Positions 12,148-14,860 of a stretch of 64,000 nucleotides of DNA are shown here, in pieces. Location of the stretch: NCBI GenBank assembly GCA_027491255.1, contig JAIXWM010000046.1, positions 62,001 to 126,000 on the forward strand, in the 5' to 3' direction. The DNA is from Rubrivivax sp. (GTDB lineage: Bacteria > Pseudomonadota > Gammaproteobacteria > Burkholderiales > Burkholderiaceae_C). Position numbers and translations under genes: made by a program. Below the pieces are notes generated by a model, which worked only from the letters and a program-made list of their open reading frames with translations, was not told the origin of the DNA and made no database searches. Numbering within the stretch: the stretch's first letter is position 1; every line of letters begins with the position of its first letter.

Positions 12148-13374
12148 TCAGGGCGCTGTCGCGGCTTCCACCGCCAGCGTCGCCACCTCCTCGTAAAGCG
12201 CGACGATGCTCTCGCGCGCCTGAGGGTGCACGCGGTTGGACAGCAGCACGTGGAACAGGCGCCGCGGCGGGTCGATCCACAGCGCGCAACCGGTGAAGCC
12301 GGTATGGCCGAAGCTGCCGGGGCGCGGGTGGCGGCCGCGCGCCCGTGACAGCGGGGTGTCGATGTCCCAGCCCAGGCTGCGCCGCTCGGCCAGCGCCGGC
12401 GGGGTGGCCACGGCGGTCATCTGCGCCACGGTCGACTCACGCAGCACCGTCGCACCGTCGAGGCTGCCGCCTTCGAGCACCATGCGTGCGTAGCGGGCGA
12501 TGTCGGCCGCGGTGCTGAACAGGCCGGCATGCCCGGCCACGCCGCCCATGCGGCGGGCGGTGGGATCGTGCACGACGCCGCGCATCAGGCGGCGCGACCC
12601 CTGGTCGTCCACCCACTCGGTGGGCGCGATGCGCGTGGCCGGCATGCGTTCCAGCGGCAGGTAGCCGCTGTCGCGCATGCGCAGCGGCTCGAAGATCCAA
12701 GCCCGGGCCAGCGCGTCCAGGCCCTGGCCGGTCAGGCGCAGCGCGATGTCGCCCAGGAGCACGAAGTTGATGTCGGAGTAGCGGAACAGCGTGTCCGGCG
12801 GGTGCGTGGGCTGGCTGCGGCAGGCCAGCGCGACGGCCGCCTCGTGGCCCGTCCAGGGCGCCTCCAGCGGCAGGCTGGCCGCCAGGCCCGAGGTGTGCGT
12901 GAGCAGGTGGCGCACCGTGATGCCCTCGCCGCCGGAAAAGGCGGGGACGATGCGGCGCACCGGCGCGGTCAGATCCAGCACGCCGGCCTCGACCAGGCGC
13001 ATCAGCACCGGCGCCGTGACGACGACCTTGGTCAGCGAGGCGGCGTCGTAGACGGTGGCGGCGTCCAGCGGCTCGGGGCCGGGCTCGAGCGCCTTGCGGC
13101 CGACGACGCTGTCGTGCACCACGGGCTGCCCGCCGCCGTGGTGCTCGACCCGCACCACCGCCCCCGGCAGCCGGCCCTCGGTCACCGCACGGGCCACGGC
13201 AGCGTCGATGCGGGTCCATGGGCTGGAGGAGGCAGGATCGGGGACCGCCGGCACCGGGGCAGCCGACAGGCCGTGGGCCGGGCCGGGCGATGCCTCGGCC
13301 GCGACCCAGGGGGCCACGGCAGTGGCCATGCAGACGGCGCGTCGCGCTGCGTCTGCGCGATCGGGCGTCTTCAC
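12148..13374 (-). CDS. Serine hydrolase, beta-lactamase/D-alanyl-D-alanine carboxypeptidase (class C) family
   Basis: A 408-residue protein with penicillin-binding fold. 'YDAASLTKVV' gives the SxxK nucleophile motif at Ser113-Lys116, 'FRYSDINFVLLG' the YxN-like second motif (YSD), and 'FGHTGFTG' the third (HTG). The first 30-35 residues are hydrophobic with possible signal peptide character (MATAVAPWVAAEASP), so it is probably periplasmic. These esterases/peptidases act on peptidoglycan, lactams or esters; the exact substrate is unknown. It is convergent with tldD, leaving only 46 bp between the stops. Confidence 0.88.
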   Translation of the reverse strand: MKTPDRADAARRAVCMATAVAPWVAAEASPGPAHGLSAAPVPAVPDPASSSPWTRIDAAVARAVTEGRLPGAVVRVEHHGGGQPVVHDSVVGRKALEPGPEPLDAATVYDAASLTKVVVTAPVLMRLVEAGVLDLTAPVRRIVPAFSGGEGITVRHLLTHTSGLAASLPLEAPWTGHEAAVALACRSQPTHPPDTLFRYSDINFVLLGDIALRLTGQGLDALARAWIFEPLRMRDSGYLPLERMPATRIAPTEWVDDQGSRRLMRGVVHDPTARRMGGVAGHAGLFSTAADIARYARMVLEGGSLDGATVLRESTVAQMTAVATPPALAERRSLGWDIDTPLSRARGRHPRPGSFGHTGFTGCALWIDPPRRLFHVLLSNRVHPQARESIVALYEEVATLAVEAATAP

Positions 13375-13548
13375 GGGCGCCCCCTTCGCCGTGCGGCACC
13401 CAGCCCGCCTCTCGAGCCGATGGCCCGGCTGGTGCGCTGGCAGGGCGCGCGGGCGGTGCCGCCGGCCCGGGTCGGGACGATGCGGGAGGCAGCAGCCACG
13501 TTCATGCGCAGGAGCATAGCGCCCTTCGGCACATGCTACATTTCAGGC

Positions 13549-13629
13549 ATGCGTCGTCTCGACTCGTTTTATTTTGCGTACTTTTTCTTCTCGTGCCGCC
13601 CGGCGGCTGGAGAGGCCCACGCACAGTAA
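13549..13629 (+). CDS. Phe/Tyr-rich leader peptide of the aroG attenuator
   Basis: A 26-codon frame reading MRRLDSFYFAYFFFSC then ten further residues and TAA. Five Phe and two Tyr codons occur within residues 7-14 (F-Y-F-A-Y-F-F-F), composition otherwise never seen by chance in this Arg/Ala-rich DNA. It lies 112 bp before a DAHP synthase and is followed by a perfect terminator. This is the design of pheA/pheST leader peptides: scarcity of charged tRNA-Phe or tRNA-Tyr stalls the ribosome and prevents termination. No Shine-Dalgarno is evident; a possible extended -10 (TGCTACATT, 13534-13542) would start transcription almost at the ATG. Confidence 0.82.
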   Translation: MRRLDSFYFAYFFFSCRPAAGEAHAQ

Positions 13630-13680
13630 AGCGAGCGCGCCGACCCCAGAAACCGCCGGAACCCCCGGCGGTTTTTTTTT
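13600..13680 (+). promoter_or_regulatory. Transcription attenuator: antiterminator and intrinsic terminator before aroG
   Basis: Terminator: AACCGCCGG (13651-13659), loop AACCC, CCGGCGGTT (13665-13673), then a run of T to 13680. Competing antiterminator: CCGGCGG plus CTGG (13600-13610), directly after the Phe/Tyr codons of the leader peptide, can pair with CCAG (13646-13649) and CCGCCGG (13653-13659) with only an AAA bulge, destroying the terminator's 5' arm. The two structures are mutually exclusive, as required for attenuation. Pairings are read directly from sequence; the mechanism is inferred by analogy with pheA and trp leaders. Confidence 0.8.
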
Positions 13681-13741
13681 GCCTGTCGCGCGCTGAACGA
13701 CACCCCTGAAACCTCACCCCCGACCGAGAAAGGAATCCGTC

Positions 13742-14860
<1,119 letters not shown>

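Follow-up and report, generated by a model that had tools for sequence, protein, structure and literature searches.

The window analyzed here is a stretch of 64,000 nucleotides from the draft genome of a Rubrivivax sp., and the locus of interest within it consists of aroG, which encodes a type I DAHP synthase, and a short upstream region that contains a small open reading frame (ORF) and several predicted RNA hairpins (Table 1). The AroG protein scores 532.6 bits against TIGR00034 (cut-off, 173.2) and 321 bits against PF00793, and its top match among solved structures is a Phe-sensitive DAHP synthase; against a narrower NCBIfam AroG model it scores 555.1, which is slightly below the cut-off of 568. 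Ser180 and Ser211 of Escherichia coli AroG have been connected with feedback by Phe, and the residues aligned to their surroundings are conserved in the AroG of the window (GLSAPVGF and HHFLSV), so this enzyme may also be feedback inhibited by Phe. No second DAHP synthase was found in the draft genome, which is 98% complete and belongs to the Burkholderiales as judged from its relatives: the other PF00793 match is kdsA and PF01474 has no match, which makes aroG the sole DAHP synthase found there. Several relatives have a second AroG (L204 to L223) that is 56 to 61% identical to the window's and is not preceded by a leader, and a copy of this type is absent from the window's genome.

The upstream neighbor of the leader is a divergent gene of the PF00144 serine hydrolase type. 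For this gene, all 25 of the NCBIfam models shown, including those for class C beta-lactamases, are far under their cut-offs. Because it lies on the opposite strand, the terminator at 13651 to 13673 cannot be its 3' end, and a plus-strand transcript that meets the terminator most simply begins within the 174 intervening bases.

Table 1. Features of the aroG locus (positions are those of the window)
Feature	Position	Strand	Details
Divergent PF00144 serine hydrolase gene	12148-13374	-	Upstream neighbor of the leader
Extended -10 element, TGcTACATT	13534-13542	+	From sequence; last base 6 nt before the leader ATG
Leader peptide ORF, MRRLDSFYFAYFFFSCRPAAGEAHAQ	13549-13629	+	26 codons + TAA
Regulatory codon core, F Y F A Y F F F	13567-13590	+	F7 Y8 F9 A10 Y11 F12 F13 F14
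Protecting hairpin 1:2	13587-13615	+	From folding; 13587-13592 with 13610-13615 and 13595-13599 with 13603-13607
Antiterminator 5' arm (segment 2), CCGGCGGCTGG	13600-13610	+	Contains conserved GGCGG (13602-13606)
Antiterminator 3' arm (segment 3), CCAG-AAA-CCGCCGG	13646-13659	+	AAA bulge at 13650-13652
Predicted intrinsic terminator hairpin 3:4, AACCGCCGG-AACCC-CCGGCGGTT	13651-13673	+	Perfect 9 bp; loop 13660-13664
Terminator T-run	13672-13680	+	From sequence; 9 T
Shine-Dalgarno-like GAAAGGA of aroG	13728-13734	+	By eye from sequence; 7 nt before the aroG ATG
aroG, type I DAHP synthase	13742-14860	+	TIGR00034, PF00793

On both strands of the window, the leader at 13549 to 13629 is the sole ATG ORF of 14 to 45 codons that has at least 5 Phe, Tyr, or Trp residues within 9 residues. 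When the 306-nt upstream region was shuffled 5,000 times, 2 shuffles reached 5 aromatic residues, 1 reached 6, and none reached the 7 that are observed. The terminator (-19.4 kcal/mol) has a stem that is extendable to 12 pairs (13648 to 13676). The alternative antiterminator, in which 13600 to 13610 pairs with 13646 to 13649 and 13653 to 13659, has 11 bp and -21.3 kcal/mol as a duplex, and it is exclusive with the terminator, whose 5' arm this pairing takes up. Hairpin 1:2, at -17.0 kcal/mol in a fold of 13584 to 13616, competes for the segment 13600 to 13610. The 137-nt stretch from 13549 to 13685 folds at -63.7 kcal/mol, compared with -42.2 (standard deviation, 3.8) for 200 dinucleotide shuffles (z, -5.7), none of which is as stable. 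An earlier note on this DNA had described a 26-codon leader with Phe-Tyr-Phe-Ala-Tyr-Phe-Phe-Phe, a perfect terminator with a 9-bp stem followed by a T-run, and an alternative pairing of 13600 to 13610 with 13646 to 13659 around an AAA bulge; the sequence bears out all three base for base, and the coordinates given, that of the AAA bulge among them, are exact.

For a comparison with relatives, we read the upstream regions of 80 aroG loci from public contigs and of 30 from whole genomes, which are partly identical. Leaving out the kdsA locus, loci with less than 250 nt upstream, and identical upstream regions reduced 112 loci to 106 distinct regions. An ATG ORF of 14 to 45 codons with at least 5 Phe, Tyr, or Trp residues in 9 residues is present in 85 of these 106 regions versus 13 of 2,120 shuffled regions. 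Terminators were located in 79 of the 85 leaders, and inspection by eye indicated that the sequence used for the remaining six was too short, stopping within or ahead of the terminator. A larger set of 264 distinct aroG upstream regions adds genomes from the order and the class. Here, a leader together with a CCGCC...GGCGG terminator and T tail is found in 115 regions, a count that takes ATG starts and CCGCC/GGCGG terminators only and misses a GTG leader such as L301. Sorted by AroG identity, leader and terminator are present in 69 of 78 regions at 70% or more, in 46 of 126 at 60 to 70%, and in 0 of 60 below that. The 9 regions at 70% identity or more that have no leader with terminator are 3 from Polynucleobacter, 2 from Cupriavidus, 2 others, 1 from a contig titled Planctomycetota, and 1 that starts at a contig end. 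In one leader, L011, the aromatic codons are interspersed with several for His (RYHFWHFHIQH), and GGCGG is absent; this leader may be drifting.

A covariance model (R1) was built from the 30 leaders of alignment A2. In 36 leaders, a 3-nt spacer separates GGCGG from GAG, and the 30 in A2 were taken from these. In the genus, with the window's own genome included, R1 has a single match in each of 21 genomes out of 25, and 21 of these 21 matches adjoin aroG; in the other 4 genomes, which are 75 to 85% complete, no leader-type aroG was found. The window's genome has no further R1 copies at an E value of ≤0.001. Within the family, a single match per genome was obtained at an E value of ≤1e-4 for 195 of 200 genomes, which cover 124 of 126 genera, with adjacency to aroG checked for the fetched loci (L303 to L305) and for the genomes examined before. 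In the order, 35 of 150 genomes have matches at 36 places, and 33 of these adjoin aroG and are spread over 13 families. The remaining three (G037:C1, G068:C1, and G249:C26) are the weakest of the 36 (E values of 3e-4 to 9e-4), have no AroG match in the surrounding stretches, and were taken as chance terminator matches. In the class, 8 of 276 genomes have a match: 3 are of the window's own family, 4 are of families f61 and f66 and have the match before aroG, and 1 (G275, L302) has it near an ORF that by eye resembles cysteine synthase, which was also taken as a chance terminator match. Most sampled genomes outside the family have no R1 match, but R1 was trained on Burkholderiales leaders and large searches filter more strictly, so the low counts elsewhere are lower bounds. 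R1 matches none of 20 loci of the AroG paralogues at 56 to 61% identity (from genus, family, and order genomes) and likewise none of 45 loci of the class, and a search of plasmid records for the leader gave no match. Based on these searches, we conclude that the RNA is a conserved family upstream of aroG.

Many of the leader ORFs are predicted to be leaderless. An extended -10 box (TGNTANANT, mostly TGCTACATT) precedes the leader ATG in 55 of 59 close-group leaders, with 6 nt from the end of the box to the ATG in 11 of them, 7 nt in 27, and 8 nt in 17; L037, L051, L102, and L103 lack it, as do 20 of 20 distant leaders. It has zero occurrences in 5,675 nt further upstream, and in the window it ends 3 to 10 nt before 1 of 1,396 ATGs. 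A Shine-Dalgarno-like tetramer lies ahead of 1 of the 59 close-group leaders, and none lies before the window's leader. Transcription typically begins some 7 nt downstream of a -10 box, so the predicted RNA start in the window is at or next to the leader ATG, and the close-group leader ORF is predicted to be leaderless. In the larger set, the extended -10 box precedes 61 of 69 leaders of the close group but 1 of 46 of the distant group, and a TANNNT box alone is found at the same distance in 3 more close and 11 more distant leaders. By eye, leaders from Burkholderia and Oxalobacteraceae have TATAAA- or TATAGT-like boxes approximately 25 to 40 nt upstream, and four leaders from outside the order have TGTTATCAA- or TGTTATCTA-like boxes 7 to 8 nt before the start, which indicates that the leaderless layout is not confined to one family. 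In L301 (G154:C33), from a genome outside the order, the leader apparently starts with GTG at the leaderless position, TGTTATCAATGGCCCCGTG.

Selection at the RNA level was assessed in alignment A2. In 7 of the 30 aligned leaders, A-U replaces G-C at terminator pair 109-121, and the leader base that faces column 109 in the antiterminator tracks this change (n = 30): columns 38 and 109 are C-G in 17 leaders, U-A in 7, and U-G in 6, with no unpaired cell. In the larger set, 92 of the 110 leaders that have GGCGG can form the base pair beside it, compared with 71.5 expected, and 0 of 5,000 shuffles are as high, a statistic that is inflated by kinship and that concerns the one varying pair, beside the GGCGG core, on which the covariation rests. 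The other 18 of the 110 leaders do not pair there, and 5 of the 115 are without GGCGG. The change has occurred in more than one lineage: in L077, a leader from Oxalobacteraceae, the base is A and its partner in the terminator arm is U. The five GGCGG:CCGCC pairs are invariant in A2 and uninformative, and the invariance of GGCGG is partly by choice, because the members of A2 were picked for it. A plain MAFFT alignment of 50 leaders (A1) shifted GGCGG by one column between lineages and was kept out of the counts. Among the pairs proposed for hairpin 1:2, one fails in 26 of the 30 leaders and two fail in 4 of the 30.

The covariation between the terminator arm and the leader base next to GGCGG, together with the joint conservation of leader ORF and terminator, makes it scarcely credible that the hairpin is a constitutive terminator of another transcript, either the 3' end of the upstream gene or a small RNA, preceded by an accidental ORF. 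The hairpin alone is a textbook terminator, and a terminated leader would resemble a small RNA, but leader-like ORFs are rare in shuffles (13 of 2,120) and the orientation of the upstream gene also argues against a terminator that serves another transcript.

The two parts of the leader seem to be kept for different features. The reading frame of GGCGG-N2/3-GAG is mostly 0 in Comamonadaceae-type leaders (PGGREA) and mostly 2 in others (AAGEA and PLADREG), and because this frame differs between lineages, the 3' part of the leader seems to be kept as RNA rather than as peptide. The core, by its codon content, seems to be kept as aromatic codons: Phe, Tyr, or Trp accounts for 750 of 1,035 core residues in the 115 leaders, with synonymous variation among the codons (308 TTT and 160 TTC, 109 TAC and 84 TAT, and 89 TGG).

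The 9-residue core contains Phe in 115 of 115 leaders, Tyr in 106, Trp in 85, and all three in 81, with the three together in 59 of 69 close leaders and 22 of 46 distant leaders. The Trp codon of the close relatives is near the core end, by the switch point and outside the counted stem of hairpin 1:2. At codon 13, the second-last Phe of the core, most close relatives have Trp and the window has TTC, whose last base joins the stem. Trp has also been lost in other close leaders, such as L031 (Cys) and L101 (Arg); no link between Trp loss and the number of DAHP synthases was seen in a comparison made by eye only and uncounted. Since most cores hold Trp and the window's copy has Phe instead, the codons point to a family that most likely senses Phe, Tyr, and Trp and to a copy in the window that most likely senses Phe and Tyr. 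The earlier proposal that both Phe and Tyr are sensed fits the window's copy, but most close relatives also have a Trp codon at the position where the window has Phe.

The aromatic residues might act as peptide rather than as codons. Arrest peptides such as TnaC usually need particular residues, and the leader peptide could stall the ribosome from within the exit tunnel in response to an amino acid or metabolite, not to empty A-site codons. The order of residues is partly kept in close relatives (FYFAYFWFS), as nascent-peptide arrest would require. However, in distant leaders (FFTGYFYFS, FYFYFFWHL, HWFFFGFF, and FYFWYYFP) the intervening residues change while the number of aromatic residues stays high, which is what codon counting predicts, and we regard arrest by the peptide as very unlikely.

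Based on the leader, the exclusive hairpins, and their recurrence, we consider it highly probable that aroG, and with it the entry step of aromatic amino acid synthesis, is controlled by a ribosome-mediated transcription attenuator of the pheA/trp type and that the AroG enzyme is probably made mainly when aromatic amino acids run short. The earlier note had proposed this design before aroG, and the comparison supports it: leader, terminator, and antiterminator recur upstream of Burkholderiales aroG, with covariation, and the aromatic codons are so placed that a ribosome stalled on them would cover part of the protecting hairpin. The note had also named the absence of such a leader and stems before aroG in related genomes as evidence that would speak against it, and on examination, both recur there. 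As we envision the mechanism, RNA polymerase would start at or next to the leader ATG, directed by the extended -10 box, and a ribosome that had begun on the leaderless ORF would follow it through the aromatic codons. When charged Phe- or Tyr-tRNA is short (and, in most close relatives, also Trp-tRNA), the ribosome would stall at codons 7 to 14 and mask the 5' arm of hairpin 1:2, thereby freeing 13600 to 13610, which would pair with 13646 to 13659 before the 3' arm of the terminator is made, and aroG would be transcribed. When the supply is ample, the ribosome would pass over segment 2, or hairpin 1:2 would re-form behind it, and transcription would end near 13680.

We modeled such stalls with a ribosome that covers the RNA to 10 nt past the A-site codon and with only the RNA ahead of it, up to the terminator loop, free to fold. 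The mean antiterminator probability of the 115 leaders is 0.97 with the ribosome at aromatic codons of the core, 0.15 from the fifth codon past the last of these onward, and 0.00 at the stop codon; at the same three positions, it is 0.97, 0.18, and 0.00 with a footprint of 8 nt and 0.94, 0.11, and 0.00 with one of 12 nt. The last codon that gives the antiterminator is the last aromatic codon or lies 1 to 2 codons later in 91 of 115 leaders (10 nt), and with the 12-nt footprint the antiterminator is already lost at the last aromatic codon in 25 of 115. A run with a 9-nt footprint covered 78 leaders, with one that had a wrong short terminator left out; in this run, the antiterminator probability for the window is 1.00 from codon 3 to F14, 0.80 at S15, 0.00 at C16, and ≤0.20 later. 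The probability is also high at codons before the core, and the model alone does not single out aromatic codons.

This last property of the model, in which most codons ahead of the switch point favor the antiterminator whether they are aromatic or not, is what would be expected of a general translation sensor, in which any slow-down of the ribosome on the leader leads to read-through and the aromatic codons only place the stall. Such a sensor leaves the presence of Trp in 85 of 115 cores and of Tyr in 106 of 115 unexplained, and we think it an unlikely account of the leader. It is not exclusive with ribosome-mediated attenuation.

The fed state of the proposed attenuator appears to depend on timing. 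If pairing behind the ribosome is allowed in the equilibrium model, the antiterminator probability at the stop codon is 1.00 in the window and 0.66 on average in the 115 leaders, being below 0.5 in only 37 of them, and the mean at late codons is 0.37. With no ribosome and before the 3' arm is made, the mean is 0.57, with 49 of 115 leaders below 0.5; in the complete RNA at equilibrium, the terminator wins (0.97). There are 20 nt between GGCGG and the leader stop codon, so a ribosome at the stop codon may not cover GGCGG. Because equilibrium favors the antiterminator at the stop codon, termination in the fed state needs either the ribosome over segment 2 or hairpin 1:2 to form first, and we infer that the fed state is set by this order of events.

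Flux toward all of the aromatic amino acids is determined by DAHP synthase, and in E. coli, this entry step is split over three isoenzymes under the control of TyrR and TrpR. According to a regulon study, many groups of gammaproteobacteria have conserved TyrR and TrpR, whereas other classes lack both regulators (PMC5343134). On what we judge to be an even balance, the element before aroG may be an undescribed RNA family, a leaderless attenuator in which one codon array reads the supply of Phe, Tyr, and Trp and thereby controls the enzyme for the first committed step of the shikimate pathway. The RNA is nearly universal in one large Burkholderiales family, adjoins aroG in 12 other families of the order and two outside it, and may do the work of TyrR and TrpR; single lineages would have retuned it by losing the Trp codon, as in the window. 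If this is true, one attenuator counting codons for Phe, Tyr, and Trp would be an answer to how the entry step is controlled in Burkholderiales, and the leaderless start would provide a simple case of a ribosome that keeps step with RNA polymerase in an attenuator without a Shine-Dalgarno sequence. The RNA described by model R1 could be entered into Rfam and could be used as a part that senses the supply of aromatic amino acids.

Attenuators with a ribosome-mediated mechanism are classical, and the pheA leader, represented by RF01859 (Phe_leader) and located before pheA, has the full 1:2/2:3/3:4 layout. Like this leader of gammaproteobacteria, the present element has a Phe-rich leader peptide, a hairpin, and a terminator, and the Phe_leader model aligns end to end (1 to 125) over 13539 to 13680, which suggests that the same layout arose by convergence or by very old common descent. 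The window's score for RF01859 is 21.7 bits (E, 0.37), which is far below the gathering score of 55. This match is the best of seven subthreshold Rfam matches near the window's leader, none of which reaches gathering, and at gathering cut-offs, Rfam has 0 matches in 20 family loci, so a known Rfam family was rejected as an assignment. Also unlike the pheA leader, the element lies before aroG, has Tyr codons mixed in (and Trp codons in most close relatives), and has a -10 box directly before the ATG and no Shine-Dalgarno-like tetramer.

An attenuator before aroG of Burkholderiales is not described in the literature that we searched; an earlier prediction may be contained in work on attenuators of proteobacteria by Lopatovskaya et al. 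2010 and Vitreschak et al. 2004. Related elements are predicted for other DAHP synthase genes. The prediction tables for Shewanella list an "Attenuator sensing tyr-tRNA" for aroF and a "Possible transcription termination" for aroH (PMC2659441), and the idea of attenuation at E. coli aroF is cited in PMC8632094; in the parts of these sources concerned, the elements belong to other isoenzymes and genomes than the present aroG leader. The uORFC-13-1 motif, for which attenuation was proposed, is similar in that an upstream ORF with Phe and an intrinsic terminator precede a DAHP synthase gene, aroF of Acholeplasma (PMC8632094). As described there, it has 24 representatives from Acholeplasma and environmental sequences, and at least one Phe is named; unlike for the present leaders, that description, which is the sole basis of this comparison, mentions no mixed Phe/Tyr/Trp array (PMC8632094). 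The leaderless start has a counterpart in the poly-Cys attenuators of mycobacteria, which are short leaderless ORFs (Canestrari et al. 2020, as cited in PMC9031893). As summarized in that citing source, the codons of a leaderless ORF sense an amino acid and set downstream expression, as proposed here, but the amino acid in mycobacteria is cysteine, whereas the present leaders of Burkholderiales have aromatic codons and an intrinsic terminator (PMC9031893).
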